Assembly: GCA_030156435.1 (NCBI GenBank)
Contig: JASGMM010000013.1
Coordinates: 1-36,476, forward strand
Reading direction: 5' to 3'
Length of the DNA stretch: 36,476 bases
DNA from: Clostridiales bacterium
Lineage (GTDB): Bacteria > Bacillota > Clostridia > Mahellales > Mahellaceae
Within the stretch, counting starts at the first letter, position 1. Every line of letters starts with the position of its first letter. The notes beneath the pieces are model-generated. The model searched no databases, was not told where the DNA came from, and was given only the letters and a program-made list of their open reading frames with translations. The position numbers and the translations under genes are program-made. Shown piece by piece: positions 5,686 through 24,489 of the stretch.

Positions 5686-6678
5686 CTATTGAATGCTGTC
5701 AGCATTGTCTTTGGTGACAACAGACACGCCTGTATCGACATTTGGATTATCGATGTTTTCGCCTTTAATGGCTTTTACTGCAGCCTTCATGCCTTCATAT
5801 CCCATAGTCTCAGGGTTTTGCACTATAGTACAATACAGCCAACCTTCCTTCACCAACGAAAGTATCGCATCGGACTTGTCAAATCCAACACCCACTATAT
5901 CTTTTTGGCCATATGCTTTTATGGCATTGCCAACTCCAACAGTAGAACCTTCATTGGTACCAAAAATACCAACTACTCCATCGGTAATATAATTATCTGC
6001 TATATCCTGGCTTTTCATGGCATCGCCTTCGCCGTATTGGGTGGGAAGCAATGTATAGCCTTTTCCTTCGAATGCTTCGCGGAAGCCTTTTTCGCGCAAG
6101 ACTGTAGAAGTCGTCGCGGAATTTACGTTCACGATACCTATTTTACCGTCTTTTTTACCGGCTGCCTCCAGAGCTTGGATCATTTGTTCACCGGCTGTTC
6201 TGCCAGCTGCCTGGTTATCCGTCGCAAAAGTCGCATATGCCTCGGTATTGGCCGGAGAGTCTACATAAACGATCTTTATACCATTCGCCTTTGCCTCTTC
6301 CAAAGCCGCTGTAACGGCATCTGGCCCATTTGCAGCTATTATTATGGCATCAGCGCCATCGGCAATCGCATTATTAACTCGCTCTATTTGCTGAGCATCG
6401 TCTTTTTTATCGGGAGCCATCCATTTATAATCGATATTTCCAAGCTCCTCAACCGCCTTCTTAGCGCCTTTATCTACCGCAACCCAATGCTGATCTGTGC
6501 TATCCATAGTAATAAGGATAATCTTATATTTTTCACCCTCATTTTGCTCCGTCGCATTGTCAGTAGAACCATTGGTTTCCCCTTCGCCAGTCGTTCCGGA
6601 ACTATTCTGGCTACATCCCGCCAAAACACTGACCAATAAAACCGCGCATAATAAAACTGCTAAAATTTTCTTTCTCAT
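5686..6678 (-). CDS. RbsB-type sugar-binding lipoprotein of ABC importer 1
   Basis: This is the extracytoplasmic solute receptor of an RbsABC-type importer. It starts with a lipoprotein signal: two Lys, a hydrophobic run, then the lipobox LAGC, with the lipidated Cys near residue 21. A Ser/Thr/Asn/Glu-rich linker of about 25 residues follows. The rest is the two-lobed periplasmic-binding fold of the ribose/galactose class (KIILITMDSTDQHW, DAIIIAANGPDAV, GIFGTNEGSTVG, VGVGFD). A longer frame begins with TTG at 6693 inside the ribosome site. AGGT/GGAGGT at 6686-6691 fits the ATG at 6678, giving about 330 residues. It is the last gene of its importer operon. The ligand cannot be told from sequence; a pentose or hexose is likely. 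Confidence 0.9.
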   Translation of the reverse strand: MRKKILAVLLCAVLLVSVLAGCSQNSSGTTGEGETNGSTDNATEQNEGEKYKIILITMDSTDQHWVAVDKGAKKAVEELGNIDYKWMAPDKKDDAQQIERVNNAIADGADAIIIAANGPDAVTAALEEAKANGIKIVYVDSPANTEAYATFATDNQAAGRTAGEQMIQALEAAGKKDGKIGIVNVNSATTSTVLREKGFREAFEGKGYTLLPTQYGEGDAMKSQDIADNYITDGVVGIFGTNEGSTVGVGNAIKAYGQKDIVGVGFDKSDAILSLVKEGWLYCTIVQNPETMGYEGMKAAVKAIKGENIDNPNVDTGVSVVTKDNADSIQ

Positions 6679-6726
6679 GCAACTTACCTCCAAATATTTT
6701 TTATTTATTAATTAAAGCATATAGCT

Positions 6727-7761
6727 TTAACTAGCCTTTTGTATGGGTATTGTTTTATCCTCGAGCACTTTTTTTCTTGGCCTACCAGTGCGAATGACCA
6801 CATCGAGTAAAACAGATACAACGACAATCGTACCTATAACAATATTGCGTATGGCCACCGGAGCTCCCGCAAACTGAAGACCGTTTTGAAGCACTCCCCA
6901 TATAGCTGCACCAACGACCGTTCCCAGCAAGATACCTTGACCGCCCAGCGTGGATATACCGCCGATAACAGCCGCGGCTACCGCGTACATTTCATACATA
7001 GTACCGGCATCCATAGTGCCCATACCTGCTGTAGCACACGTTATAAGACCGACTACGGCGGCACAAAATGAACTTATGACATAGGCAATAATTACAGTCA
7101 TGTCTGTATTTACACCGGACAGCTTGGCTGCCTCAATATTGCTTCCTACGGCGTAAATATAACGGCCGGTGCGCGTCCTGCTTAAAATGAAGTTAAATAC
7201 CAAAAATATGGCTAAAGCTATCCAAATAGTGTTATATACCCCTGCCACGCTGCCATAATAGAAAAAGTCGCGAAAGCCTTGCGCCGCTTCTCCTATAGCA
7301 TCGGTATTATAGTTGTTATTAACTATCTGAGCAATGCCGCGAGCAACCGTCATAGTACCCAGCGTAGCGATAAATGGTGGCAGTTTGCATTTTGCAACCA
7401 ATGCACCATTGAGTACACCGACTCCAAGACAGCTTATAAGGGTAACTAACACAGCTATCCACGGATCCATGCCTTTTGTCATTAAAGTTGCAGATATCAT
7501 AGTGCTCATGCCTACAACCGATCCTATAGACAAATCAATGTTTCCGGTAATGAGCACATAACCCTGCCCAATGCCGATAATAAGTATCGGAGCAATTTGG
7601 CGGAGCAAATTTCCGATATTTCTAGCAGAATAGAACGATGGATTTAAAAAGCTAAACAGCAAGCATAACGCTATCAAACCAATAGTGCCAGTTAAAACCT
7701 GCCCCATCCCGCGAATGGAAATTAATCTTTCCCATAAATTCATTTTTTTCGAGTTTTCCAT
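6727..7761 (-). CDS. RbsC-type sugar ABC permease of importer 1
   Basis: This membrane subunit forms the translocation channel of the importer. The roughly 344-residue protein has about 8-10 hydrophobic segments. It shows family motifs such as GQGYVLITGNIDLSIGSVVG (residues about 65-85), LPPFIATLGTMTVARG and GGISTLGGQGILLGTVVGA. The call is secure at family level. TTG at 7767 is an alternative start but lies only 2 bases from AGGAG (7770-7774); the ATG at 7761 has a normal 8-base spacing. It is preceded by the ATPase and followed by the binding protein, so the order is A-C-B. Confidence 0.92.
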   Translation of the reverse strand: MENSKKMNLWERLISIRGMGQVLTGTIGLIALCLLFSFLNPSFYSARNIGNLLRQIAPILIIGIGQGYVLITGNIDLSIGSVVGMSTMISATLMTKGMDPWIAVLVTLISCLGVGVLNGALVAKCKLPPFIATLGTMTVARGIAQIVNNNYNTDAIGEAAQGFRDFFYYGSVAGVYNTIWIALAIFLVFNFILSRTRTGRYIYAVGSNIEAAKLSGVNTDMTVIIAYVISSFCAAVVGLITCATAGMGTMDAGTMYEMYAVAAAVIGGISTLGGQGILLGTVVGAAIWGVLQNGLQFAGAPVAIRNIVIGTIVVVSVLLDVVIRTGRPRKKVLEDKTIPIQKAS

Positions 7762-7796
7762 CTTCAATACTCCTGACTATAATCTTATAAAACACA

Positions 7797-9314
7797 TTAT
7801 ACCGCTTGTTTCTGTGTGAGCTTAGATTCAAACTTGGTCGCATACTCCATAATAAGGTTCTCCGTCGCTTCACCGGAATATAGTTCGCCGGTAATCCTTC
7901 CATCACACATAACTATTATCCTGTCACTTATACCCATTATCTCCGGCATTTCCGATGACACGAACAATACACCGATTCCCTGTCGCTTTAAGTCATTCAT
8001 AAGGTTATAAATTTCCACTTTCGCTGCCACGTCTATGCCTCTAGTAGGTTCATCAAAAATAACTATTCGGGAATTTCGTGCCAGCCATTTGCCGACAACA
8101 ACCTTTTGTTGATTTCCTCCCGAAAGGGATGCGGCATCAACTTCTATACTCGGCAGTTTTATGCTTAAATTTCTAACCGTATCCTCTGCCATTTCGTATT
8201 CTTTTTTGCGATTGACAATGCCGAAATCTTTGCAAAGAATATCGAGATTAGGCAATGCTATATTTTCTCTAACGCTAAGCTTAACGCACAAGCCATCTCT
8301 TCTACGATCTTCTGGCACGAGCACTATACCCGAGCGGATCGCATCTCGCGGACTATTTATTATAACCTCTTTGCCGTCCACAAAAATCCGCCCTGATTCC
8401 TTTGGATCGGCACCAAAAATCGCCCTGGTGGTTTCAGTTCTTCCCGCGCCCATCAACCCTGCTATGCCTACAATTTCGCCTTCATATATCTCAAGATTGA
8501 TATTTCGCACCAACCTGCCTGCGTTGAGATTCTGAACTTCAAAAATCTTTTTCCCGCGTTCACAATCGATGCGAGGAAACCTGTCCTCGATTTCCCGTCC
8601 CACCATATAAGAGATTATTTCGGACATCGTCGTATCCTTAAAGTCCATGGAAGTAATATATCTGCCATCGCGCATAATGATAACGCGGTCTGCAATATAT
8701 TGAAGCTCTTCTAAACGATGTGAAATATATACGATACCGCAGCCCTCTTTTTTTAATTTTCTTATTATCCCAAACAGATCCTCAATCTCTTCCGAAGCAA
8801 GAGCAGAAGTAGGTTCATCCATTATCAAAACTTTAGCATTAATAGAAAGCGCTTTAGCGATCTCTACTAATTGCTGTTGAGAAACCGGTAATTCCCCAAC
8901 AATCGCTTCAGGATCTATATTTACATTTAGTCGTTTAAGGATATTCCTTGCCTCATCGTTCATTTCACTATCCTTTAGTATACACGAATGTGTTTTTTCA
9001 CGACCTAAAAAAATATTTTCCGCCACAGATAGATGAGGGCATAAGTTCAGTTCCTGATGGATTATAGCTATGCCGAGCTCTTGTGCTTTTTTAGGTGTTA
9101 TATCTTCTACGATCTGGCCGAACACCTTGATCTCCCCTTCATCTTTGGTATACACCCCGCTCAGCACCTTCATGAGCGTGCTTTTGCCCGCACCATTTTC
9201 GCCCAACAATGCCAATACCTCTCCGGGCTTTAATTGGAACGAAACATCCTTCAGCGCCTGTACACCCGGAAAGCTCTTGCTTATATGGCTCATCTCAACG
9301 ATATATTCATCCAT
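7797..9314 (-). CDS. RbsA-type tandem ABC ATPase of importer 1
   Basis: This cytoplasmic protein carries two fused nucleotide-binding domains and powers importer 1. Domain 1 has an intact Walker A (GENGAGKST), a Walker B (LIMDEPTSAL) and the H-loop ISH. Domain 2 has the family's usual altered P-loop (GLMGAGRTE), the signature LSGGNQQK and IVFDEPTRGID. The length of about 505 residues is standard. The ATG at 9314 follows AGGTGAG at 9319-9325; the earlier ATG at 9338 has no ribosome site. It serves as the intact comparison for the degenerate homologue immediately upstream (9430-10896), which has lost nearly all of these motifs. Confidence 0.94.
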   Translation of the reverse strand: MDEYIVEMSHISKSFPGVQALKDVSFQLKPGEVLALLGENGAGKSTLMKVLSGVYTKDEGEIKVFGQIVEDITPKKAQELGIAIIHQELNLCPHLSVAENIFLGREKTHSCILKDSEMNDEARNILKRLNVNIDPEAIVGELPVSQQQLVEIAKALSINAKVLIMDEPTSALASEEIEDLFGIIRKLKKEGCGIVYISHRLEELQYIADRVIIMRDGRYITSMDFKDTTMSEIISYMVGREIEDRFPRIDCERGKKIFEVQNLNAGRLVRNINLEIYEGEIVGIAGLMGAGRTETTRAIFGADPKESGRIFVDGKEVIINSPRDAIRSGIVLVPEDRRRDGLCVKLSVRENIALPNLDILCKDFGIVNRKKEYEMAEDTVRNLSIKLPSIEVDAASLSGGNQQKVVVGKWLARNSRIVIFDEPTRGIDVAAKVEIYNLMNDLKRQGIGVLFVSSEMPEIMGISDRIIVMCDGRITGELYSGEATENLIMEYATKFESKLTQKQAV

Positions 9315-9350
9315 CTCTCTCACCTGCCTTAATTCCATATTTCATAATTC

Positions 9351-9359
9351 AGTATAACA
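9351..9359 (-). promoter_or_regulatory. Extended -10 promoter of the importer 1 operon
   Basis: On the minus strand TGTTATACT (9359 down to 9351) is an extended -10 (TG-n-TATACT), 37 bases before the ATPase start. No good -35 is seen 17 bases upstream, which is usual for an activator-dependent promoter. The response regulator encoded upstream is the natural candidate activator. Confidence 0.5.
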
Positions 9360-9429
9360 TGGAACCATAGGTGAGATAAGGGGAGCAGCTTTTGATTTAT
9401 AGGGGATTTTTTCACATGTTTTTAAGTAA

Positions 9430-10896
9430 CTATAGAATTATGCTCTCAGAATTGAAAAGATAAAAATCCTCTCTAGGGTATTCTGCCTGAAATGTGCCTT
9501 TTGACACAATAATAAGTTTATCGGCTACAGCCAGAGAATCCGCTATGTTAGTTGCCAGTATCACGACAGTAGTTCCTTGTTTTTTAAGTTGATTCATCAG
9601 TTCTATTATATGTCGACGCAAATACATATCAGCATTTGCAAAAGGCTGCACACAGAATACGATATCAGCTTTACAAATGTGAATTCTATAATAAACCAGA
9701 TCATAAAGCGACTGCAATTTCAGCTTTCTAATATCGGTTTGATAAATGGCGCTTCCTATCAGGGGTTCATATTCCTGCGCAATGCTGTTGATAACCCGTT
9801 TGCTCAATCGAATGGGGTTACGTTTTTTATCTACCAAAAAGCACAGATTAGTCAGGTAACTCATATCTGGAAACAGCATTGTCGATATAGGATTTTCCTG
9901 GATAAATGCCACACCGTATTTAAGCGAATGTTTTGCTAACTTTTGAGTGTATAGCTCATTCTTTAAGTAGATCTTGCCGCTATGCTGATATAGCTGACCA
10001 TTCATCAGCCCAATAATATCCTGTATAATGGCGTTATCCATGTCCAGTAAAACTGTACTTTCTCCTTTTACGATAGTAAAAGTAAGTGACCGCATATGCT
10101 CAGTACACACATCTTCAAATGTTAAAATTCCCTTATCGCTAATCACGCTCAATCCTTCTCGCTTAACTTTAGCAAATTCTCCGATGTAATACGGGGCTAT
10201 ATTCTCATTGTTAAATTGATCTCTGCCCAGTACTCTCAATATTTTGCCGTCTCTCATAATTGCCATGCGATCGCATACTTTAAATGCTTCCTCATGATGG
10301 CTGCAAATATAGACAAAAGAAAACCCTTGGCCGCAATAATACCTTAACAGGCTATGGAACTTTAATAAATCCGTGGTACTCAATACGTTGCTTATTTCGC
10401 GTATAGCTATCAATTTAGCTCCCATCACTACGGCGCGCAAAAGTTCGGTGACGCATTTTTCATATGGGGTAAGGCTTGATACCAATCTGCTCCCATCTAG
10501 ATCAATGCCGGCATCTTGTGTATAACGCCGCAATTGCTCCTCCAATACTTTGGAATTAATCAGGTATTTTTTAAACCCAAAGCGCATCACATATACATTA
10601 TCAGCAACGGTAAGGTTTTCGATAAGCCTGCTTTTTTGTTCGATTACAGCGACTTTATTCATGGTCATCGGGCTATGCTGATAACTGTTTACAAGCTTTT
10701 CATTAAAATAGACACGCCCGTACTGTATAGGCGCATTCTGGCTGAGCAATTGAAGCATGGCATTCTGACCGTTGGTATTTATGCATACAAGCCCCATTAT
10801 CTCGGATTGAAAGATATGAAGATTGAAATCGTTGAGCAATATCATATCGCTTTGTACGACGGTAACATGCTCCATCCTCAATACTTCATTTTTCAT
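9430..10896 (-). CDS. Degenerate RbsA-like tandem ABC protein (predicted non-catalytic)
   Basis: The protein (about 488 residues) keeps the length and two-domain plan of RbsA-type ATPases but has lost the catalytic motifs. Where intact RbsA has GENGAGKST, it has CINTNGQNA (about residues 38-46). The Walker B LIMDEPTSAL position reads LIAIREISNVL (Asp replaced by Arg). The H-loop ISH position reads ICS. The second P-loop position reads LLDMDNAII and the second LSGGNQQK position LKLQSLYD. The fold markers remain: YIC-HHEEAF, DRMAIMRDGKIL and ADKLIIVSKG. The frame is intact over about 490 codons with no internal stop, so it looks selected rather than decaying. The start is the ATG at 10896, after AGGAATCAGGT; it overlaps the kinase stop by 11 bases, implying translational coupling. 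A regulatory or adaptor role with the kinase is inferred, not shown. Confidence 0.85.
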   Translation of the reverse strand: MKNEVLRMEHVTVVQSDMILLNDFNLHIFQSEIMGLVCINTNGQNAMLQLLSQNAPIQYGRVYFNEKLVNSYQHSPMTMNKVAVIEQKSRLIENLTVADNVYVMRFGFKKYLINSKVLEEQLRRYTQDAGIDLDGSRLVSSLTPYEKCVTELLRAVVMGAKLIAIREISNVLSTTDLLKFHSLLRYYCGQGFSFVYICSHHEEAFKVCDRMAIMRDGKILRVLGRDQFNNENIAPYYIGEFAKVKREGLSVISDKGILTFEDVCTEHMRSLTFTIVKGESTVLLDMDNAIIQDIIGLMNGQLYQHSGKIYLKNELYTQKLAKHSLKYGVAFIQENPISTMLFPDMSYLTNLCFLVDKKRNPIRLSKRVINSIAQEYEPLIGSAIYQTDIRKLKLQSLYDLVYYRIHICKADIVFCVQPFANADMYLRRHIIELMNQLKKQGTTVVILATNIADSLAVADKLIIVSKGTFQAEYPREDFYLFNSESIIL

Positions 10897-11923
10897 ATAA
10901 TACCTGATTCCTTTCAGTGATTTTCGGAAGGGTGATCTCCACATCTGTTCCTACATTTAATGTACTGTATATACATATACCGTATTCCTCCCCAAATAAT
11001 AGTTTAATCCGGCTGTTTACATTGGTTATAGCTATTCCGCCGTGTTTTTCATTCTCCGGTTTTATATAGTCCAACGGCATACCCTTTAGCCTATCATTAA
11101 TTTCTTGAAGTTTATCTTCAGTCATGCCGACACCATTATCGGATACGGTGATAATCAAGCGTTTGGCTGTGCTCTCTATTTTAATGCGCACTTTGCCTTC
11201 CCCTATTTTTCGCTCAATGCCATGATAAATCGCATTTTCCACAATAGGTTGAAGTATCAGTTTAGGGACCCTGCATGACATAATCTCTATTTCATCTTGT
11301 GCATCATATTCCACGCTGAGGCTGAGCCGTTCTCCAAAGCGATACTGCTGGATAATGTAATAGTTATTGACGTTTTTCAATTCGTCCTCTAATGTAACCA
11401 GGTTTTCAACATTAGAGATGGTATAACGGAAAAAAGTAGCCAGTGCCTCCGTCATTTTTGCGACGTTATCCAGACCTGCGCTCAAGGTTTCCCCACGTAT
11501 TCCTTCCAATGTATTATATAAAAAGTGAGGATTGATCTGATTTTGCAGTGCAAGATAATGGGCTTGCTTTTTAGTCGCATTGAGTATCTCATAGGTTTCC
11601 ATAATCTCCTGAACCTTTTCTATAACTTTATCCATTTCCGGGCTTAATGTTATATGCCGGTCAAATAGGGCATCGATAGTATAACCGGCTGCAAATAGCT
11701 GTAAAACCTTTGCATTCTCTCTATATGGCTCATAAATCCATTTATAATATACAAAGAGAAGCAGTCCCATTGATGCATAACCTGTCAATACATAAACAAT
11801 GCCAATATACCCCTGCACAGCAAGTATGCTTATAAAAATCAACAAGGCAAATATAAAAGCAAATAGTGCTCCGGTCACCCACAAAATCCTAGTCGATAAA
11901 TACTTTATATGCTTAAACTTCAT
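10886..11923 (-). CDS. YesM-type histidine kinase lacking an extracytoplasmic sensor domain
   Basis: This membrane sensor kinase is of the His_kinase/HATPase class (YesM/LytS type). Counted from the ATG at 11923 (345 residues), two hydrophobic segments (about 12-35 and 41-60) are joined by only about five residues. A linker follows, then the phosphoacceptor motif NQINPHFLYN with His at about residue 133, and then the ATPase motifs including DNGVGM. Classical YesM proteins carry a dCACHE domain of about 250 residues between the two membrane spans and run to nearly 600 residues; that domain is absent here. GGTGAT just before 11923 supports this start; 11929 is possible. It overlaps the pseudo-ATPase and lies just after the regulator gene. 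It must sense within the membrane or through a partner. Confidence 0.93.
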   Translation of the reverse strand: MKFKHIKYLSTRILWVTGALFAFIFALLIFISILAVQGYIGIVYVLTGYASMGLLLFVYYKWIYEPYRENAKVLQLFAAGYTIDALFDRHITLSPEMDKVIEKVQEIMETYEILNATKKQAHYLALQNQINPHFLYNTLEGIRGETLSAGLDNVAKMTEALATFFRYTISNVENLVTLEDELKNVNNYYIIQQYRFGERLSLSVEYDAQDEIEIMSCRVPKLILQPIVENAIYHGIERKIGEGKVRIKIESTAKRLIITVSDNGVGMTEDKLQEINDRLKGMPLDYIKPENEKHGGIAITNVNSRIKLLFGEEYGICIYSTLNVGTDVEITLPKITERNQVLYEK

Positions 11924-11936
11924 CTGCATCACCCAC

Positions 11937-13553
11937 TTAAGAATATAGCTTTCGATATTCACTCGGTTTAAGACCTGTATTCTTACGAAAACTTTTCGTA
12001 AAATGCTTCAAATCGCTATACCCTACTTGCTCGCATATTTCAGCAATATTTAAATTGGTCTCCCGAAGAAGTTCTTTGGCCTTATTTACCCGCGTTTCCG
12101 TAAGATAATCCACAAAATTTGTACCGCTTACTTTTTTAAATAATGTACTGAAATAAGTCGGGCTGAAACCGACTATATTGCTTATATCTTCCAGCGATAT
12201 AGGCTTCATATAGTTCTCTTGTATATACTGCTTAGCCAGCCTTATAGGCCTGGTTTCCTCCTGCTCCTTCTGTTGTGCGATTAATTTAATGGATTCGCCT
12301 ATCATCATGCAAAGATAGCTGAATATTTCATCCACTGTCTTGCAACGCCATGCATGAATGTGAAATTTCTCCAGAAATTCATCGCCGTGATGAATGGCAA
12401 TCTGATTATTGCGCAGATGCGTTAGATACATCTCACACGCTTGTTCTGCAAGAGATATAATATCTAATCCGCTCAATCGTTTTTCCGCAGCTATAGTGTT
12501 ATAAAAATCCTTCAAGCTGCTCAATACAGCATCGGAATTCAGGACTTCTATAACCGGCCCCATCGACTTATTTAATTCCGCCATTAAACGCGCCTGTAAC
12601 TGGAGAGATTGATTCATAATCGCGCCTTCGATTACGCGACCCGTACCCAACAACAAACGCTGGCCAATGGCATATACTGCAGAGTTGAAACTATCCTTGA
12701 GCCCGCTTATATCATCATACACCTCTCCAATAGCTATCGTGAATTCAAATTGTTCAAATGCCGCTTTCTGTTGTATCAGTTCGTCCAGTATCCCTTTTAT
12801 CTGAGCGCGTATGGATTTTTTCCTTTCAATATCATAGTTTAATATGCAATAGACCGTGCTGTCATCCATATAATTGCCAATTTCAAAGCATTGCGTCCTT
12901 AAAAGATTATCTATAATGCGGGTTATTTTTTCTTCTAAAATCGGAATAGCACTGTTATATTGATCGTCATACCCGCAATCGATTTTTACTCCTATGACTT
13001 GAAATATACCCGATTGAAAGGAATAATGGTAATAGTCATTAGCCGAATCGATCGTCAAATCTTTTGTTGTAGCACCCTTTTTAAGTAAACGCTCGCTAAA
13101 AATGCCCTCGCGCAGTTTATCCGCGTCATTCTCTATCTGCCTTCTCATACGCTCTTCTTCGCTAAGTTGTTTTAAATTGCGAGCATACTTGGCCTTTATT
13201 TTTTCCAAAGCAGACAAAAGATCCTCTTGCTTTATAGGCTTAAGCAAATAATCGCCAACGCCATACTTAATGGCATTCTGTGCATATTCAAAATGCCCAT
13301 AACCGCTGATTATGATAAAGTTTAATTCTTCTTTTATATCTTTTGCGCGACGTATCATTTCTAGGCCATCATACCCCGGCATACGTATATCAGTGATCAC
13401 CAGGTCCGGTGAAAGCGTTCGGATCATATCCAATGTTTCTATGCCGTTATGCGCAATGCCTATTATCTCCATGCCCAACGAATTCCAATCAATCAGGTTT
13501 TGGATTAACTGGCATACATTTTCTTCATCATCTGCGATAATAACCTTAATCAT
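11937..13553 (-). CDS. YesN-type response regulator with AraC-family DNA-binding domain
   Basis: This transcription factor is phosphorylated by the adjacent kinase. The receiver domain (about residues 1-120) has the acidic pocket D8/D9, the phosphoacceptor D55 in VITDIRMPG, and K105 in LLKPI. A middle region of about 300 residues has no recognised catalytic motif. The last ~100 residues are two AraC-type helix-turn-helix units (ISLEDISNIVGFSPTYFSTLF, then NIAEICEQVGYSDLKHFTKSF, split over residues about 450-520). The ATG at 13553 follows GAGGAG; the frame continues upstream but without a better site. It is first in the regulator-kinase-pseudo-ATPase operon and probably controls the importer promoter at 9351-9359. 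Confidence 0.95.
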   Translation of the reverse strand: MIKVIIADDEENVCQLIQNLIDWNSLGMEIIGIAHNGIETLDMIRTLSPDLVITDIRMPGYDGLEMIRRAKDIKEELNFIIISGYGHFEYAQNAIKYGVGDYLLKPIKQEDLLSALEKIKAKYARNLKQLSEEERMRRQIENDADKLREGIFSERLLKKGATTKDLTIDSANDYYHYSFQSGIFQVIGVKIDCGYDDQYNSAIPILEEKITRIIDNLLRTQCFEIGNYMDDSTVYCILNYDIERKKSIRAQIKGILDELIQQKAAFEQFEFTIAIGEVYDDISGLKDSFNSAVYAIGQRLLLGTGRVIEGAIMNQSLQLQARLMAELNKSMGPVIEVLNSDAVLSSLKDFYNTIAAEKRLSGLDIISLAEQACEMYLTHLRNNQIAIHHGDEFLEKFHIHAWRCKTVDEIFSYLCMMIGESIKLIAQQKEQEETRPIRLAKQYIQENYMKPISLEDISNIVGFSPTYFSTLFKKVSGTNFVDYLTETRVNKAKELLRETNLNIAEICEQVGYSDLKHFTKSFRKNTGLKPSEYRKLYS

Positions 13554-13637
13554 GTTTACTCCTCGCCTTGACGTCATCCGCCCGAATGGTTATCTCCATT
13601 TGCTCAGACCTTCATTTATGGCTTACTAAATAATAAT

Positions 13638-13692
13638 GCCGTTGATCTACGACGCTTCTTGCCCATGTTCGATCAACGACATTATTATATCA
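13638..13692 (-). promoter_or_regulatory. Extended -10 promoter and inverted repeat upstream of the regulator operon
   Basis: On the minus strand TGATATAAT (13692 down to 13684) is a full extended -10. Directly downstream is an imperfect inverted repeat, GTCGTTGATC (13680 down) with GATCAACGGC (ending at 13638), with one mismatch and a 23-base loop. It lies at the expected start of transcription and could be an operator, perhaps for autoregulation, or a 5' stem-loop. No clear terminator of the upstream inositol operon is seen in the gap 13554-13735. Confidence 0.5.
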
Positions 13693-13735: not shown

Positions 13736-15259
13736 CTATATACCGCCGCCTACAGAGCCGTCCCATGTATCAACCTTGGTCTTTTTAAGCTCATCCTCGT
13801 CAAACCACCGTGTTGTCACCGTTTTTGTCTCGGTATAGAACCTAACGCCGTCCTTACCCAGCACATGCAAATCGCCTATAAACGACATCTTATGGCCGTT
13901 GAATGGGAAAATGCCAACCGGCACCGGTATGCCCACATTGACCCCTACCATGCCGCCGTGCGTTCTCCTTGCGAATTCACGCGCATAGTACCCATTTTGT
14001 GTGAATATCACCGAGCCATTGGCAAACGGATTGCTGTTCATAAGCTCTATGCCCTCTTCGAAGTCCTTAACCCTTTTTATGCACAGCACGGGCCCGAAAA
14101 TCTCCTGTTGGCCTATGGTCATCTCAGGCGTCACATGGTCGAATATGGTCGGCCCAAGGTAATAGCCGCCTTCATAGCCCGGCACAACTATGTTTCTGCC
14201 ATCGAGTACTAATTCGGCCCCTTCCTCAATACCCTTTTCTATCCATTTTATAATGGAATTTCGGTGTTCGGCCGATACCACAGGACCCATCTCGGTCGTT
14301 TTGTCATACGCAGGGCCCACTTTCAAAGCGCTGGCTTTTGTTTTAAGTATCTCAACCAGTTTGTCAGCTATGCTCTCCTGAGCTACTATGACCGGCAAAG
14401 CCATGCACCTTTCGCCTGCACATCCAAAAGACGAGTTCATGATGCCGGCTGCTGTTCTCTCAAGCGGAGCATCTTCGAGCACCAGGCCGTGATTTTTGGC
14501 CTCTCCTAAAACCTGTACCCTTTTGCCGTGAGCTGCTGCTGTTTCGTAGATATGCTGGCCTACCGATGTGGAGCCCACAAAGGATATACCCTTTACATCG
14601 GGATGCTTCAGCAGTATCTCCGATTCGTTTCTGCTGCATGTGATGATGTTCAGCACGCCGTCGGGCAAACCCGCTTCCTGCCATAGCTCGGCGCATCTCA
14701 TGGCTGTCATAGGCACCATCGAAGCCGCTTTTATCACCATAGTATTGCCGGTAGCTATACACAGCGGTGCCATCCAACCCATGGGGATCATCCCTGGGAA
14801 GTTCCACGGCACTATGCCAGCGAATACGCCTACCGGTTCTCTATACAGAGTCGTATCATACCCCTTCGACGTATCCATGAGCGATTCGCCCAACATGAGC
14901 GTGGGTATGCTACAGGCAAACTCGATCGGTTCTTTTATCTTCAGCACCTCGCCCTTGGCTTCCTCCCACGCCTTACCGTTTTCATGCGCTATAATATCGG
15001 TGAGTTCATCTATATGGTCTTCCAGTATATCCCTGAATTTGAATATTATCTGTGCGCGCTTCATGACTGGCATCTGCGACCAGGTCACAAAAGCCTCCTT
15101 GGCCGCTTCCACCGCCATATTGACCTCCTCGACGGTGCAGCATGGGGTCTGCGCTATCACCTCGCCTGTGCTGGGGTTATGGACATCCATGTACTTGGCT
15201 GTCTTAGATTCTATCCATTTGCCGCCTATAAAAATCTTTAGTTTTCTTATATCGCTCAT
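13736..15259 (-). CDS. iolA: CoA-acylating methylmalonate/malonate semialdehyde dehydrogenase
   Basis: IolA (MmsA family) oxidises malonate semialdehyde with NAD+ and CoA to acetyl-CoA and CO2, the last step of inositol breakdown. The 507-residue protein is a typical aldehyde dehydrogenase: N153 in PWNFPG, the NAD-binding GSTSVG near residue 229, and the catalytic Cys at about 285 in AGERCMAL, the form seen in MMSDH. GGAGGAG precedes the ATG. It is the last gene of the operon, 18 bases after iolB. Its substrate in this pathway is the three-carbon acid half of the aldol-cleaved 2-deoxy-5-keto-gluconate. Confidence 0.95.
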   Translation of the reverse strand: MSDIRKLKIFIGGKWIESKTAKYMDVHNPSTGEVIAQTPCCTVEEVNMAVEAAKEAFVTWSQMPVMKRAQIIFKFRDILEDHIDELTDIIAHENGKAWEEAKGEVLKIKEPIEFACSIPTLMLGESLMDTSKGYDTTLYREPVGVFAGIVPWNFPGMIPMGWMAPLCIATGNTMVIKAASMVPMTAMRCAELWQEAGLPDGVLNIITCSRNESEILLKHPDVKGISFVGSTSVGQHIYETAAAHGKRVQVLGEAKNHGLVLEDAPLERTAAGIMNSSFGCAGERCMALPVIVAQESIADKLVEILKTKASALKVGPAYDKTTEMGPVVSAEHRNSIIKWIEKGIEEGAELVLDGRNIVVPGYEGGYYLGPTIFDHVTPEMTIGQQEIFGPVLCIKRVKDFEEGIELMNSNPFANGSVIFTQNGYYAREFARRTHGGMVGVNVGIPVPVGIFPFNGHKMSFIGDLHVLGKDGVRFYTETKTVTTRWFDEDELKKTKVDTWDGSVGGGI

Positions 15260-15277
15260 TTTTTCTCCTCCATTACG

Positions 15278-16057
15278 TTATTTTGCCGGCCAGATCGCAG
15301 CATCTTCCTGCATCACCCAAAGGTGCTCTGGTTCAAATGTGGGCGTTATATACGGGTTGCCTTCCAAGTGGCGTATAACCCATATATAATACATAGCATA
15401 GCCGGGGGCCGATACCTGAGGATGGCTGGCATCGTTTAGTATCTCTACAGTGTCGTTGTTTTTGACTTTTAGGACGTTTTCGCCGAGGTTGCAAAAGCCG
15501 AAGCCATTCTCTGGACTAAATTTATAATAATATATCTCTGGCTGTGGATGATGGTGCGGCGGATAGCTGGACCATTTCCCAGGATAGTTTATTACCTCTC
15601 CCAACACCAGTTTGGAGTAAGGCGCATTCGAATAATCGAATATGGTCCTTACTATGCGCGTGGCCATCTCGTTCACGGTGCCTTTGCCCCTTTCCTCGCT
15701 CCGACATTCCTCATCCGAATAAAGATGAGCGTCGAAGGCAACGCTGTTATCGGTCTGTGATACCGACAACTCCGCTTCATCGCTTACGCATTTTATATTT
15801 ACAGCGATCCTGGCCGGAACATGCAAGCACCATGGGTTTTGGTCCAGAAAGCTTTTTCTATGGACAATGGCCTTTCTGTTCCCCCATTCGAAAACCACAT
15901 CGCCATGTATGAGTAAAAATGCGCGTTCTTTTGCCGATGCATCGGCAAACCCCTGATCCTTTTTCAATTTCAGTATACCAAAGTCCATTCCCGTCTGATC
16001 TTCATGCACTATGTTGTTATAGCCGAGATCAAAAGGCTTATCCCTTCTTATCAACAA
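15278..16057 (-). CDS. iolB: 5-deoxy-glucuronate isomerase
   Basis: IolB converts 5-deoxy-glucuronate into 2-deoxy-5-keto-gluconate in inositol catabolism. The protein is 259 residues long and has the double cupin fold, with the metal-ligand motif HHHPQPEIYYY (about residues 170-180) and a later YYIWVIRHLEG stretch. It starts with TTG at 16057, placed 9 bases after GGAG in AAAGGAGACG; no ATG is available near the expected N-terminus. It lies 15 bases after the transaldolase-family gene. Homology to characterised IolB is clear. Confidence 0.94.
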   Translation of the reverse strand: MLIRRDKPFDLGYNNIVHEDQTGMDFGILKLKKDQGFADASAKERAFLLIHGDVVFEWGNRKAIVHRKSFLDQNPWCLHVPARIAVNIKCVSDEAELSVSQTDNSVAFDAHLYSDEECRSEERGKGTVNEMATRIVRTIFDYSNAPYSKLVLGEVINYPGKWSSYPPHHHPQPEIYYYKFSPENGFGFCNLGENVLKVKNNDTVEILNDASHPQVSAPGYAMYYIWVIRHLEGNPYITPTFEPEHLWVMQEDAAIWPAK

Positions 16058-16072
16058 ATGTATCGTCTCCTT

Positions 16073-17149
16073 TTAAATGGTTATCATAAATCCCCTTATA
16101 ACACCTAAAAGCTCTTCGTATCCTTCTATAAAGGATTTAAGGGTTTTCCTTGTAGCGCCAAATTCATCGAAATCCTCGGGTTTCATGCCGTCAGCATCGT
16201 ATGCTCTGCGGAAATCGTCGAATTTAGCGTACAGCTCATCGATTATCTTCTTGTCGACATCATTGTCCATCCTAGCAGCTACTTCGATGTCAGAAGCATT
16301 GAACATCCTCTGCCACTTATACGGTATGGTAAGCACTATATCGCCGCCCATGAGCTCGCTCCACTGCAGGTAATTCCTGTAAGCTGCCGCTAAAAGGCGC
16401 GTTCGATAACCTCGCTCCTTGTATATCCTGTAGGCTTTCTTTATGGCGGCTATGCCAGCCCAATCGAGGTAGCCAGGCGTAGCAAGTATTCCATCTTTTT
16501 CAGCCACATCCTTGAGCCAATCGTCCAAACGGCCTACCATTATCGTGCATACCGGCCTCATTGATGCTATATCTTTGCCTTCTTTTTCCCTGCGGTTAAG
16601 CCCTCTTTCTATGGCCTCGGCTACAGCCAACGATTGGGGAACGGTAAAGCAAACCGTCGCATTTATATTAACGCCGTTATATGTGGCCTCTTCTATAGCC
16701 TCTATGCCAGCCTTCGTGACCGGTATTTTTACCTGCATATTAGGCGCCAATGTATTGAAATGTATTGCCTGTTCAGCCATCATCTCAGCATTTCTGTAAT
16801 ATTTAGGGTTGGTCTGTATGGATATTCTGCCTTTTAATCCATTTTCTTTATCAAATACCGGCTTTAGCAACTCTGCTCCTTTGACGGCCATTTCCTCAAT
16901 TAATTTCCATGCCACATCTTCTTCAGTGCCCTTAGGCATCTCTTTTATTATCTGATTTATTCTGTCCTGCCAAAGATGCATTTCTTTCTTTAATACATTG
17001 AATACTATTACCGGGTTGGTAGTGGCCCCTACCGCACCGTTTTCTATAGCGTAGGTCAGCTCCTCCACTGAGCATGAATCATTCCAAAAATCCGTAGGCA
17101 TCGTGGATGCCATCCTGTGCAATGGGCTTTTATAACCATCCATAGTCAT
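16073..17149 (-). CDS. Transaldolase-family protein in the inositol operon
   Basis: This 358-residue TIM-barrel enzyme belongs to the class I transaldolase/fructose-6-phosphate aldolase superfamily. It shows GATTNPVIV (residues about 41-49), the Schiff-base Lys at about 141 in QVKIPVTKAG, and NINATVCFT after it. GAGGTGAT precedes the ATG at 17149. Transaldolase is not a textbook inositol enzyme, yet this gene sits between iolE and iolB in one transcription unit that lacks iolC (kinase) and iolJ (aldolase). Relatives such as fructose-6-phosphate aldolase use dihydroxyacetone as donor. Cleaving 2-deoxy-5-keto-gluconate between C3 and C4 would give dihydroxyacetone and malonate semialdehyde, the substrate of IolA. 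That role is inference; an ordinary pentose-phosphate transaldolase is the alternative. Confidence 0.88.
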   Translation of the reverse strand: MTMDGYKSPLHRMASTMPTDFWNDSCSVEELTYAIENGAVGATTNPVIVFNVLKKEMHLWQDRINQIIKEMPKGTEEDVAWKLIEEMAVKGAELLKPVFDKENGLKGRISIQTNPKYYRNAEMMAEQAIHFNTLAPNMQVKIPVTKAGIEAIEEATYNGVNINATVCFTVPQSLAVAEAIERGLNRREKEGKDIASMRPVCTIMVGRLDDWLKDVAEKDGILATPGYLDWAGIAAIKKAYRIYKERGYRTRLLAAAYRNYLQWSELMGGDIVLTIPYKWQRMFNASDIEVAARMDNDVDKKIIDELYAKFDDFRRAYDADGMKPEDFDEFGATRKTLKSFIEGYEELLGVIRGFMITI

Positions 17150-17177
17150 TTAAAATCACCTCGACAAAATATTATTT

Positions 17178-18071
17178 TTACAATCCGGCTTTAGCCTTTA
17201 TATATTCCCTGGCCTTTAAGGCGTATTCCAGCGGATTGGCCTTGGCCGGGTCCTGTTCCGCTTCCACCACCATCCATCCTTCATATCCTGTATCATCAAG
17301 CACTTTGAATATAGGAGCAAAATCTATCATACCATCGCCGGGCACTGTGAATACACCGGCTCTTACGGCATCGAGAAAGCTCATGTCCTCGCGTTTAACC
17401 TTCTCTAAGACGTCTTTTCGAACATCTTTGAGATGTACATGTTTTATTCTGGCAGCGTATTTTTTCACAACATCCACCGGGTCTTCGCCCGAGAATACCA
17501 GGTGCCCTGTATCATAGAGCAGATATACGAGATTCGGATCTGTCATAGACATAAGCCGGTCGATCTCTTCAAGCGTCTGCACGCCGGTGCCCATGTGGTG
17601 GTGATACGTCAGTACCACCCCCTTATCCTGAGCCAATTTACCCAAATAGTTCAATCCGTCGGCCAGGCGCTTCCATTCTTCTTCGGTGAATATGGGTTTA
17701 CCAGCAAACACGGGTATATCTTTTAATCCTTGTATACTGTGCCCTTGCTCCGCCGCGCCTATTATCTTCGCGCCTAATTCATATAGAAGATCCCTGTGCT
17801 TTATGAATGCATCCACCGTTTCCTGCAGGGGTTTGGTGGTGAGGTATGCGCTGAACCAAGCATTGCATACCTTGAGACCCCTCAAAGACAAAGCCTTTTT
17901 AAGCACCTGGGGATCTTTTGGATACTTGTTGCCCATCTCGGTGCCTTCAAATCCAGCCAGCGCCATTTCGCTTATGCATTGTTCAAATGTATTCTCTGCA
18001 CCCAGTTCAGGCATATCGTCATTGGTCCATGCTATGGGCGCTATGCCCAATTTCACTTTGTTTTTATCCAT
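17178..18071 (-). CDS. iolE: Inosose dehydratase
   Basis: IolE dehydrates scyllo-inosose to 3D-trihydroxycyclohexane-1,2-dione. The sequence aligns well with Bacillus IolE from the N-terminus on (VKLGIAPIAWTNDD, FEGTEMGNKYP) and shows the xylose-isomerase-like barrel metal sites (YHHHMGTG, LLYDTGHL, KHVHLKD, VVEAEQDP). Three ATG codons compete (18089, 18080, 18071). 18089 overlaps the iolD stop as TAATG, but 18071 has AAGGA at 8 bases and aligns exactly with the known N-terminus, so it is preferred (297 residues). Translation is probably coupled to iolD. Confidence 0.95.
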   Translation of the reverse strand: MDKNKVKLGIAPIAWTNDDMPELGAENTFEQCISEMALAGFEGTEMGNKYPKDPQVLKKALSLRGLKVCNAWFSAYLTTKPLQETVDAFIKHRDLLYELGAKIIGAAEQGHSIQGLKDIPVFAGKPIFTEEEWKRLADGLNYLGKLAQDKGVVLTYHHHMGTGVQTLEEIDRLMSMTDPNLVYLLYDTGHLVFSGEDPVDVVKKYAARIKHVHLKDVRKDVLEKVKREDMSFLDAVRAGVFTVPGDGMIDFAPIFKVLDDTGYEGWMVVEAEQDPAKANPLEYALKAREYIKAKAGL

Positions 18072-18088
18072 ATCGTTCATCCTTGCCA

Positions 18089-20020
18089 TTAATACTTTCT
18101 TGCTTTTTTAAGCTCTTCTTTCAATTCCTCAGTAGCTTTCACTATATCCTGTTTGCGCGCCACCTCAGCATTGCCCACTCTCCACCACGATTCGTAGTCG
18201 TGCGTCATGGTCTTGGGCAATACTTTTATATCTATCAATGTGGATACGGTTTGCTTCTTGGCGTCCTCTATGGCGTTTCTAAGGTCTTCTTCGCTTCTAA
18301 CACGATAGGTTTTGCAGCCGTAGCCTTCGGCACATTTGGCGAAGTCTATGCACATAAGCTCGCCATCAAGCTTTCCGGTCTGCTCGTTTCTCATGCGAAA
18401 TTCGGTGCCGAAACTGCCCATGCCGTGGCCCATCTGCAGGTTATTTATGCAGCCGAACGAGGCGTTGTCGAATAGCACCACGTTTATCTTCTTGCGCTCC
18501 TGTATAGATGTTATAAGCTCGGAGTGAAGCATGAGATATGACCCATCGCCTACCATGGCGTATACCTCCACATCTGGCCTGGCCATCTTCACACCCAGCG
18601 CAGCATTTATCTCATAGCCCATGCATGAATAGCCATATTCCATATGGTAGGTATCGGGGGCTTTAGGGCACCACATCCTCTGCATATCACCCGGCAAGCT
18701 GCCCGATGAACCGACTACTATTGCATTGCCATCTATCATCTCGTTCAATATGCCCAGCACCCTGGTCTGAGGCATGTATGAGCCGAATTTTTCTCCGAAT
18801 TCCTCTATCACTTCATCTTTATGGCCAGCTATTTCTGGCTGGAAACCTTCGCTATATCTGACGTTTGCAAGCCTATCCAACTCTTGCAGCCATTTGTCCC
18901 TGGCCTCTTTTATCTCGGTGGTATATGCCGACCGATAACCAAGTCCCTTCAGCTCTTTGCATATGGCCTCAAGCGCCGCCTTAGCATCGGCTATCACCCT
19001 TACCCCATCCAGTTTATAGGCATCGAACGAAGCTATATTTATGTTGAGGAAAGCGACATCCGGGTTTTGAAAAAGCCATTTGGACGATGTGGTAAAATCG
19101 GTATAGCGCGTGCCTACGCCTATTACCAGATCAGCCTCTTTTGCTATAGTATTGGCCGCGAGGTTGCCTGTCGCGCCTATACCGCCCAGATTGAGCTCGT
19201 GGTCCCATGTTATGGCACCCTTGCCCGCCTGAGTTTCTCCAAACGGTATGTTGAATGCCTCGGCAAATGTTCTAAAGGCCTCCTGCGCTTCGGAGTACTT
19301 AACGCCGCCACCGCATATCAATATAGGCTTTTTCTTGCTCATTATGAGCTTTACGGCATCTCTTATCATCTCTTTAGTAGCCAGCACGCGTTCTATGCGG
19401 TGCACGCGCTTTGCCAGAAACTCAATGGGGAAATCGTAGGCCTCGGCCTCGACATCTTGAGGCATAGCCAATGTTACAGCGCCGGTATCGGCCGGATTGG
19501 TCAGCACTCTCATGGCGTTTATGGCTGCCGACATGAGCTGCTCGGGGCGCGATATCCTGTCCCAATACCTGCTTACGGCTTTGAAGGCGTCGTTTGTGGT
19601 TATGCCTATGTTGTAGTATTGCTCCACCTGTTGCAATACCGGGTCAGGCTGCCTTGTCGCATATGTATCGCCCGGCAAAAACAGTACCGGTATGCGATTA
19701 GCAGTAGCCGTGCCGGCTGCCGTCACCATATTGGCGGCGCCCGGCCCTATAGATGATGTGCAGGCGTATATCTGCCTCCTGTGCATCTGCTTGGCATAGC
19801 CTATGGCTGCATGGGCCATGCCTTGTTCGTTTTTGCCCTGGTGCACTATCAGCTCACCCGGATCCTCTTCCAACGCTTGGCCTATGCCCAACACGTTGCC
19901 GTGGCCGAATAGCGTGAATACACCTCTTACAAACTTCTGCTCGACGCCGTCGAATTCAATATACTGATTATCCAGAAATCTGACCAGGGCCTGCGCCATG
20001 GTCATTCTCACGGTTTTCAT
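18089..20020 (-). CDS. iolD: 3D-trihydroxycyclohexane-1,2-dione hydrolase
   Basis: IolD opens the ring of the diketone made by IolE, giving 5-deoxy-glucuronate; it is a thiamine diphosphate enzyme. The 643-residue length is typical. It has the three-domain plan of the ThDP-decarboxylase family: N-terminal [20 protein letters not shown] with the family Glu replaced in its own context, a middle domain with [10 protein letters not shown], and a C-terminal ThDP/Mg motif GDGSYLML...NASFGCINN at about residues 495-530. GAGGTGG precedes the ATG at 20020. It lies between iolI and iolE. Confidence 0.96.
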
Positions 20021-20046
20021 AATACCACCTCTTCAAAAATAACCCT

Positions 20047-20883
20047 TTATTCGACTTCAAAATATTTGCTCACTACTTGCTCTGTTTTTTCTTTACCTAC
20101 CATTATAGCCTTCTCTATATCCCAATCCCAGTATTCGGGACGGAAAAGTTCTACGGAGGCCATTTCATTGTAGCCTATCTTTTTTAGCGTGCTGAGTATG
20201 GCATCTAGGTCTATGACGCCCTCGCCAGGCCATAGCCTATTGTTGTCGCGTAGCGCACCGATGGGCAAATCTTCGGCATCGTCTATATGGAAAATGAATA
20301 TCTTCTTAGGATCGGCCTTCTCCAAATCCTCTATCCTTGAGCCCATGGCATGGAAGTGGAAGCAATCCAACACTATACCGACGCTATCCCTGTTGACGGC
20401 TTTAACTATATTGTAAGCTTGACCAAATGTATTCACAGAACAATTGGGATATCCTACAAACTCAAACGCCAGCTTGAAACCGTGAGGCTCGGCATAACCT
20501 GCCAGGTCATTCAGCGCCCTTACGGTTTCCTCTTTTATCTGCGCCTTGGTATAGTTGCCGACATCGAATGTGGGTACCACAACGATCTTCTTGCAGTTGA
20601 TTTTATCCCCAACATCACAGAGGAATTTCAAATTTTCTTTTATCTCGTTATAACCTTTCTCATCCCTAAAGGTGATGAACTCCAATGCATTGAAAGCATA
20701 GGGCTTTATCCCGCTTTTAGCGAAAAACGCAGCAAGATCATCAACCGTATGGTCTTTGAGGTAATCGCGGAGCTTGTCGAGCCTAATCTCAATCAGCTCA
20801 TAACCAGCTTTTTCGCACAGTTCGAGATCCTTCTCTAGTGTAGAATTTTTCATGGTTGTGGCTTCATTAAAACATATCTTCAT
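20047..20883 (-). CDS. iolI: Inosose isomerase (2-keto-myo-inositol isomerase)
   Basis: IolI interconverts inosose isomers so that different inositols can enter the pathway. The 278-residue protein matches Bacillus IolI along its whole length (KICFNEATT, LELCEKAGYELIEIR, VLDCFHFHAMGS, FIFHIDDAED, VELFRPEYWDW). It keeps the barrel metal ligands (Glu in AFEFVGYP, Asp and His in LDCFHFH, His in FHIDD, Glu in SVELF). Its ATG overlaps the iolG stop as ATGA, so the two are translationally coupled. Confidence 0.93.
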   Translation of the reverse strand: MKICFNEATTMKNSTLEKDLELCEKAGYELIEIRLDKLRDYLKDHTVDDLAAFFAKSGIKPYAFNALEFITFRDEKGYNEIKENLKFLCDVGDKINCKKIVVVPTFDVGNYTKAQIKEETVRALNDLAGYAEPHGFKLAFEFVGYPNCSVNTFGQAYNIVKAVNRDSVGIVLDCFHFHAMGSRIEDLEKADPKKIFIFHIDDAEDLPIGALRDNNRLWPGEGVIDLDAILSTLKKIGYNEMASVELFRPEYWDWDIEKAIMVGKEKTEQVVSKYFEVE

Positions 20884-21905
20884 AGCAACGCCTCCATTTC
20901 TTTAATTTTAACCGGTCTGTTTTCTTTTAGCGATTTCTTGGCCGCCAAAGCTATAAGTACTGGTTTTAAGCCATCTTCACCTGTCACCGGGGTTTCGGTA
21001 TCATTTATAACAGCATCTACAAATTCTTTTATTTCCTCAACAAACGAATCGTTGTATCTTTCGAGGAAGAAATACTTCGGCTTTTCGCCTATAATCCCAT
21101 CAGCAGTGCTTAGAATTCTTGTGGACGGCGTATCATTCTGATCTTCAGCGCTGCCATTGGATCCAAAAACCTCAACGCGCTGATCATAGCCATATGTAGC
21201 CTTTCTACTGTTGTTTATAACGCCTATGGCTCCATTTTCAAATCTAAGCGTGATTATGGCCGTATCTATATCGCCTGCATCGCCTATGGCCGAATCTACC
21301 AATACTGCACCGGCTGCATATACCTCAACTACTTCGCTTCCTGCCAGATACCTTGCCATATCGAAGTCATGTATAGTCATGTCCAGAAATAAGCCTCCAG
21401 ATGATTTGACATATTCTATTGGCGGCGGTGCCGGATCCCTGGAGGTTATTTGGATTATGTGCGGTTGCCCAACCTTGCCTTCTACTACAGCATCCTTTAC
21501 AGCTTTGTGGTTATGATCAAATCTTCTATTAAAACCTATCTGCAGTTTCACGCCCGCAGCCTTCACTGCATCCAGCGCCGCTTTAACTCTATCAACCGAT
21601 AAGTCTATAGGTTTTTCACAGAATATATGCTTACCTGCTTTGGCCGCTTCGATTATGAAATCGGCATGCGTATTGGTGGGCGAGCATATAAGCACCGCTT
21701 CTATTTCAGGATTGTTCAAAATATCTTTGTAGTTCTTTGTAACAGCATTTATACCGAGCTCATCTGCCCATTCTCTGATCTGATCGGCGAAAATATCGGC
21801 TATAGCTACAAGCTCTGCCTTCGGCACATTGTGCACAATATTTTCGGCGTGAAGTTTACCTATCCTCCCCGCACCTATAATGCCTATTTTGAGTTTCTTA
21901 TTCAT
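20880..21905 (-). CDS. iolG: myo-Inositol 2-dehydrogenase
   Basis: IolG oxidises myo-inositol to scyllo-inosose with NAD+, the entry step. The protein is about 341 residues. It has a Rossmann GIIGAGRIGKLH at the N-terminus, FCEKPIDLS near residue 95, and the catalytic GGLFLDMTIHDFDMARYL with Asp and His (about 170-185). A GTG at 21911 opens the frame, but AGGAG is 9 bases from the ATG at 21905, so that is the start. It follows the permease gene and overlaps iolI. A close variant acting on another inositol stereoisomer cannot be excluded. Confidence 0.92.
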   Translation of the reverse strand: MNKKLKIGIIGAGRIGKLHAENIVHNVPKAELVAIADIFADQIREWADELGINAVTKNYKDILNNPEIEAVLICSPTNTHADFIIEAAKAGKHIFCEKPIDLSVDRVKAALDAVKAAGVKLQIGFNRRFDHNHKAVKDAVVEGKVGQPHIIQITSRDPAPPPIEYVKSSGGLFLDMTIHDFDMARYLAGSEVVEVYAAGAVLVDSAIGDAGDIDTAIITLRFENGAIGVINNSRKATYGYDQRVEVFGSNGSAEDQNDTPSTRILSTADGIIGEKPKYFFLERYNDSFVEEIKEFVDAVINDTETPVTGEDGLKPVLIALAAKKSLKENRPVKIKEMEALL

Positions 21906-21937
21906 AATCACTATCTCCTCTCAATAATATCGATTAA

Positions 21938-22906: not shown

Positions 22907-22933
22907 TTCTCATATTCACCTCATAAATTAAAT

Positions 22934-24424: not shown

Positions 24425-24489
24425 ATTCGCCCATCCTCTATTCGCAGTTTATCGCAGGCAGAAGCAATAGCTTCCGCCTGCTAAATAAT

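Follow-up and report, generated by a model that had tools for sequence, protein, structure and literature searches.

Bce-type modules (BceRS-BceAB) are built around intramembrane-sensing kinases (PMC10314905, PMC3023708). In the clostridial XylFII-LytS and CuaDSR systems, a two-component system switches on the adjoining sugar importer, with a second binding protein acting on the outer domain of the kinase (PMC10384115). In UhpABC, a transporter paralogue, UhpC, serves as receptor for the membrane kinase UhpB (cited in PMC5703999). RbsA-type ATPases in which single sites are degenerate are also already known (PMC11466899). In the open-access literature we found no account of the loss of both sites together with a move into a two-component operon, and no description of an ABC ATPase with both halves dead as the dedicated partner of a sensor kinase.

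Here we describe a locus that brings elements of these systems together in a 36,476-nucleotide stretch of contig JASGMM010000013.1 (referred to as the window), from a 2.19 Mb genome of the genus Mahella. A YesM/LytS-type kinase and a YesN-type regulator are encoded with a full-length but catalytically degenerate homologue of the ribose importer ATPase RbsA (referred to as the pseudo-ATPase), next to an intact RbsABC-type sugar importer.

Results

A two-component system, a pseudo-ATPase and a sugar importer are encoded together

An earlier note on this DNA, made from the sequence alone, had placed a YesN-type regulator before the kinase and the ATPase homologue, and an RbsABC importer after them. 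Gene calls and Pfam analysis gave the same arrangement, with intact RbsA, RbsC and binding protein genes following, and its coordinates and overlaps were correct, including the 11 nt shared by the kinase and ATPase homologue genes (Table 1). The regulator protein carries its phosphoacceptor Asp within the sequence VITDIRMPG. The rbsA open reading frame opens at 9338, and a start at 9314 is the better fit to the candidate promoter described below.

Table 1. Coordinates of the sensing unit, its candidate promoter and the adjacent importer in the window.
Feature	Position	Strand	Basis
YesN-type response regulator, receiver and AraC-type HTH, gene 1 of the unit	11937..13553	-	Pfam Response_reg, HTH_18, HTH_AraC
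YesM/LytS-type histidine kinase, two membrane helices	10886..11929	-	Pfam His_kinase, HATPase_c
RbsA-derived tandem ABC pseudo-ATPase, proposed kinase input subunit	9430..10896	-	AraG/RbsA models
Tandem direct repeat, candidate regulator binding site at the rbsACB promoter	9378..9421	-	Cross-locus conservation
Candidate -10 box TATACT	9351..9356	-	21 bp past the 44-bp motif
Intact RbsA-type tandem ATPase of the importer	7797..9314	-	Pfam/NCBIfam; all motifs intact
RbsC-type permease, proposed docking partner	6727..7761	-	Pfam BPD_transp_2
Sugar-binding lipoprotein of the importer	5686..6678	-	Pfam Peripla_BP_4

Upstream on the same strand there is an apparent inositol catabolism cluster (window 13736-25491, minus strand), with the sensing unit directly downstream. 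Its genes encode an aldehyde dehydrogenase, a KduI/IolB family protein, a transaldolase-type protein, two xylose-isomerase-like TIM barrels, a TPP enzyme and a GFO/IDH/MocA dehydrogenase, and a second RbsABC-type importer lies inside it (~21938-25491, minus strand). An inositol operon upstream of the unit is not constant among the loci described below, and neither are the ROK, FGGY or PfkB-type sugar-kinase-like sequences that were seen by eye close to some cassettes. Between the aldehyde dehydrogenase and regulator genes there is a long inverted repeat, AATAATGTCGTTGATC ... GATCAACGGCATTATT (~13620-13690, minus strand), which is perhaps a terminator or attenuator. With regard to a defence-system or phage origin, PADLOC gave no match and PHROGs returned only generic ABC matches.

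The kinase has no outer sensor domain

An AlphaFold model of the kinase, of moderate confidence (mean pLDDT 72.7), contains helices at residues 4-38 and 44-80, and as these span the membrane only ~5 residues are expected outside it, in agreement with the short loop first noticed in the sequence. This loop is 3-10 residues long in 24/24 kinases of the family, compared with ~250-275 residues in ordinary YesM kinases. The catalytic residues of the window kinase are intact, and together kinase and regulator have the domain make-up of YesM/YesN systems; what is missing is the large extracytoplasmic sensor domain, a feature that is usual in ordinary members and not strictly defining. The linker between the second membrane helix and the phospho-accepting His (residues ~66-131) is well conserved (PYxExxKxLxLFxxGYT ... 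TKxQAQYLALQNQ), and Pfam found no match to a HAMP domain within it. Judged from this conservation, the linker is a candidate contact site.

The pseudo-ATPase keeps the tandem fold and has lost its catalytic residues

The 488-residue pseudo-ATPase aligns over its whole length with models of AraG, RbsA and related proteins, with low scores: its Pfam ABC_tran match is 38.7 bits compared with 188.6 for the intact RbsA, with which it shares 18% identity. Its AlphaFold model (pLDDT 87.6, pTM 0.82) contains both ABC folds, and the best matches among solved structures include tandem nucleotide-binding domain (NBD) chains such as those of DppABCD and OppABCD chain D. In the window protein the first P-loop has changed from GENGAGKS to CINTNGQN, the first Walker B Asp to Arg, the H-loop His to Ser, LSGG to LKLQ, and the second Walker B pair DE to VQ.

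These losses are universal in the family. Using [AG]xxxxGK[ST] as the criterion for an intact P-loop, none was found in any of the 24 full-length pseudo-ATPases, a comparison that the earlier note had itself proposed as a check. In all 24 the Walker B Asp, the H-loop His, both glycines of the second signature, and the Asp and Glu of the second Walker B motif are replaced, while all of these residues are kept in the 22/22 neighbouring RbsA proteins compared. The family therefore shares the tandem NBD fold with the functional RbsA/AraG/MglA ATPases, and an intact competent catalytic site is present in 0/24 members. The P-loop Lys is retained in 11/24, the window protein not among them, and never inside an intact P-loop; the carboxylate following the first Walker B Asp is retained as E or D in 24/24. 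Not every loss originally listed is telling, because active RbsA already has Arg for Lys in its second P-loop, no LSGGQ in NBD1 and no H-loop His in NBD2. Some of the listed changes are thus normal for RbsA, whereas the loss of the competent set sets the pseudo-ATPase apart.

Across the six pairs tested, dN/dS of the pseudo-ATPase was 0.04-0.13, slightly higher than that of RbsA in most pairs and clearly purifying, which argues against neutral decay. The conserved motifs YICNHHEE and QPFxxAD mark the family. YICNHHEE was considered as a metal site and rejected, as its Cys and His vary among members. In one Oscillospiraceae locus (L016) the pseudo-ATPase, at 6671-8091, is split across two overlapping frames; the cause would be a sequencing error in the metagenome-derived assembly, or genuine decay.

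The unit is conserved across several bacterial groups

Searches of proteins and of genome contigs identified relatives in Mahella, Amazonia massiliensis, Merdimonas, Blautia, other Lachnospiraceae and one Oscillospiraceae genome, and further loci were added by profile searches over ~800 genomes (class, phylum and some families). In total the unit was found in 25 loci, a count that is not a frequency, as few candidates were scored per genome and the genomes are a sample. The pseudo-ATPases are 28-94% identical. Regulator, kinase and pseudo-ATPase genes are contiguous at all 25 loci, with the regulator conserved as first gene, and the RbsA, RbsC and binding protein genes are adjacent wherever the contig is long enough; the regulator, kinase and pseudo-ATPase order first seen in the window therefore holds across the family. 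At most loci the importer genes follow (regulator, kinase, pseudo-ATPase, RbsA, RbsC, binding protein), and at three Lachnospiraceae loci (L015, L017, L021) they come first (RbsA, RbsC, binding protein, regulator, kinase, pseudo-ATPase). An RbsC-type permease adjoins the unit at nearly all loci. At loci with a clear start, the pseudo-ATPase gene overlaps the end of the kinase gene or begins no more than 45 nt away, and the gap between pseudo-ATPase and rbsA is usually 60-280 nt. On plasmids there were only distant RbsA-type matches, with at most ~24% identity among the matches listed. Several groups of anaerobes and gut bacteria thus carry the unit, beside an importer that it apparently controls.

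Kinase-led searches recover the same association

As an independent check we searched with a profile of the kinase, ignoring the ATPase. All kinases scoring at least ~430 bits adjoin a dead ATPase, a result that is circular if taken alone because many of these kinases were in the profile. Among kinases scoring 280-380 bits, all but one of which were outside the profile, a tandem ATPase was adjacent in 7/9. Within 1.5 kb on each side, a tandem ATPase was present for 19/22 top-tier kinases and for 2/23 ordinary YesM kinases, the latter being those below 260 bits. The kinases with a dead ATPase form one clade (SH-aLRT 98), within a wider group that holds most of the other ATPase-linked kinases, and among the kinases of this clade the kinase-led search found no intact ATPase homologue at the same position.

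More distant kinases adjoin spare ATPases that are partly or mostly intact. Short-loop kinases occur with degenerate ATPases at three loci (L068, L117, L119) and with a half-intact ATPase at another (L124), while kinases with sensor domains occur with ATPases whose first P-loop is intact at three more (L118, L120, L122). These seven loci lie beside different RbsABC importers in varied gene orders, the order at L122 being regulator, kinase, binding protein, ATPase and RbsC. Though few, these loci suggest that the kinase's sensor domain and the catalytic capacity of the ATPase are lost in step. As L118, L120 and L122 keep an intact first P-loop, death of the ATPase is not needed for linkage to a kinase in general. 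A single clade for all kinase-linked ATPases was not supported: because the tree contains long branches that join one another, it does not establish that these ATPases and the dead family arose once.

A conserved repeat precedes the importer genes

Between the pseudo-ATPase stop codon and rbsA we identified a tandem direct repeat, AAAAAATCCCCTATAAATCAAAAGCTGCTCCCCTT, at 9378-9412, which had not been mentioned in the earlier note. The two-copy element has a 21-bp period (roughly TTCCAAARANTNCCCCCTNA twice) and precedes rbsA in most loci, including L021 with its different gene order. When each locus was scored with a model built without the sequence cluster to which it belongs, the element exceeded all 100 shuffles in 17/21 loci, with L017 and L018 borderline and L015 and L016 negative. 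In most loci a -10 box follows 20-22 bp past the 44-bp motif. The conserved element is also nearly unique: the window contains no second match (this one has 0 mismatches, with 0.11 matches expected when up to 3 are allowed), and its pattern has one perfect match in the whole Mahella genome. It is absent from the related Blautia rbsACB loci L019 and L023, which have no two-component system nearby and carry ROK and GntR regulators in its place. At a further locus (L024, ~7828), rbsACB is preceded by a clear copy of the element (30 bits), and no regulator, kinase or pseudo-ATPase was recognised within 17 kb; the sensing unit may lie elsewhere in that genome. On the simplest reading the element would be the binding site of the regulator, and the two-component system would have essentially one target, the importer. 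A regulatory link from unit to importer is well supported by these comparisons.

Discussion

Our best explanation, which we hold to be somewhat more probable than its negation, is that the pseudo-ATPase is the input subunit of the kinase, sits on the permease and reports its state, and that the regulator switches on rbsACB. The three genes would then form a dedicated transport-linked sensing unit of the adjacent RbsABC sugar importer, in which a catalytically dead relative of the importer ATPase has been turned into the input subunit of a kinase without a sensor domain of its own. The pseudo-ATPase would most likely take RbsA's place on the cytoplasmic face of the RbsC permease, where it could feel docking of the binding protein or the conformation of the permease while driving no transport. 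Its signal would pass to the kinase and lead to phosphorylation of the YesN-type regulator, which would bind the tandem 21-bp repeat beside the -35 region of rbsACB and so turn the importer on.

The steps of this proposal differ in strength. As the kinase has no outer domain, a binding protein cannot read it in the manner of XylFII-LytS or CuaDSR, and the second binding protein acting on such a domain is not part of this system. Input must therefore reach it via the membrane or from the cytosol, and the additional conserved gene encodes the pseudo-ATPase. Contact between pseudo-ATPase and kinase, like binding of the regulator to the repeat, is an inference. Docking on RbsC, already proposed in the earlier note, is the most tentative step, and is favoured because the segments following the Q-loops are retained: DLTVADNIF (HLTVAENIF in RbsA) is the most RbsA-like 9-mer of the pseudo-ATPase, and its counterpart in NBD2, SYLDNLCF, ranks with the best conserved parts of the protein. 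In known ABC importers, for example at MalK, the permease's coupling helix fits into this region. The docking proposal also draws on the adjacency within the cassette and on L122, where the kinase operon includes its own binding protein and RbsC. Alternatively, folding or kinase binding could account for the retention of this segment. Distance-matrix correlation ranked known partners top (kinase-regulator 0.58, RbsC-binding protein 0.59) and separated no single partner for the pseudo-ATPase (kinase 0.26, RbsA 0.31, RbsC 0.33, regulator 0.24, binding protein -0.03). A search of the PDB found no close relative of RbsA or RbsC.

In a rather unlikely alternative, the pseudo-ATPase serves the kinase as a cytosolic regulatory subunit, makes no contact with the permease and responds to a ligand inside the cell or to the state of the kinase, the importer being output only. 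Its closest physical linkage is indeed to the kinase, as the genes overlap and are contiguous in both operon orders, a cytosolic partner could bind at the conserved TM2-His linker, and the YICNHHEE and QPFxxAD motifs are new and conserved. However, this would leave unexplained why the docking segments are retained, why an RbsA-type importer is constant, and the arrangement at L122. We consider it improbable that the pseudo-ATPase is instead a transport brake that competes with RbsA for the permease, with the kinase receiving its signal elsewhere, for example from the permease helices as in Bce systems. The RbsA-like docking segment would suit such a brake, and BceS does touch BceB via membrane helices (PMC10314905), but by gene order the pseudo-ATPase goes with the kinase rather than with the importer operon, for which there is a separate candidate promoter, and related importers occur without the unit nearby (L019, L023). 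That the pseudo-ATPase is a decaying rbsA duplicate, or a pseudogene kept by chance beside a two-component system, would fit its low identity to RbsA and is ruled out for practical purposes by its low dN/dS, its invariant family-specific residues, its conservation in several families and a reading frame that is interrupted at only one full-length locus.

Under the preferred reading of a permease-docked input subunit, the family suggests that the dead motor of a transporter has been recruited for signalling. If so, the bacterium would read its transporter without the reader burning ATP, a set of sensorless YesM kinases would be explained, and transport-linked sensing could be tested directly on a small system whose promoter is defined and which apparently has one target. 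More tentatively, and with somewhat less than even confidence, we suggest a class of receptors derived from ABC ATPases, in which LytS/YesM-type kinases recruited spare tandem ATPases from sugar importers and the catalytic activity of these ATPases was gradually lost. They would form non-transporting complexes with permeases, and transporter occupancy would drive transcription with no hydrolysis by the receptor subunit; the window family would be the fully dead end of this series. For annotation, these pseudo-ATPase genes match importer-ATPase models and are likely to be labelled as such by pipelines.

Compared with known systems, the kinase resembles those of Bce modules in having two membrane helices and almost nothing outside, and the input of Bce kinases depends on an ABC transporter (PMC10314905). 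The Bce regulator controls the transporter genes, as we propose here. However, Bce modules use an active BceAB with a large extracellular domain, whereas here there is an RbsABC importer with an extra dead ATPase, and in place of a BceB-like permease a BPD_transp_2 permease and a binding protein are adjacent; the kinase is also of the YesM/LytS class and the regulator of the AraC type. The comparison with BceS drawn in the earlier note thus stands as a principle and fails as a family assignment, since the two systems have kinases and regulators of different classes and transporters of different types. XylFII-LytS and CuaDSR likewise place a YesM/LytS-type kinase and regulator beside a clostridial sugar ABC importer (PMC10384115), but here the kinase has no outer domain and the additional gene encodes an ATPase paralogue. 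With RbsA, AraG and MglA the pseudo-ATPase shares its fold, tandem organisation, length and post-Q-loop docking segment; unlike them it has no catalytic motifs and is encoded with a two-component system, not as the importer's own ATPase. The use of a transporter paralogue as receptor, proposed here for the pseudo-ATPase, recalls UhpC, a protein that belongs to the secondary carriers rather than to the ABC ATPases. The system is therefore a two-component system of the YesM/YesN type with an unusual kinase and a third, ATPase-derived component, and belongs to neither the Bce nor the Uhp family.
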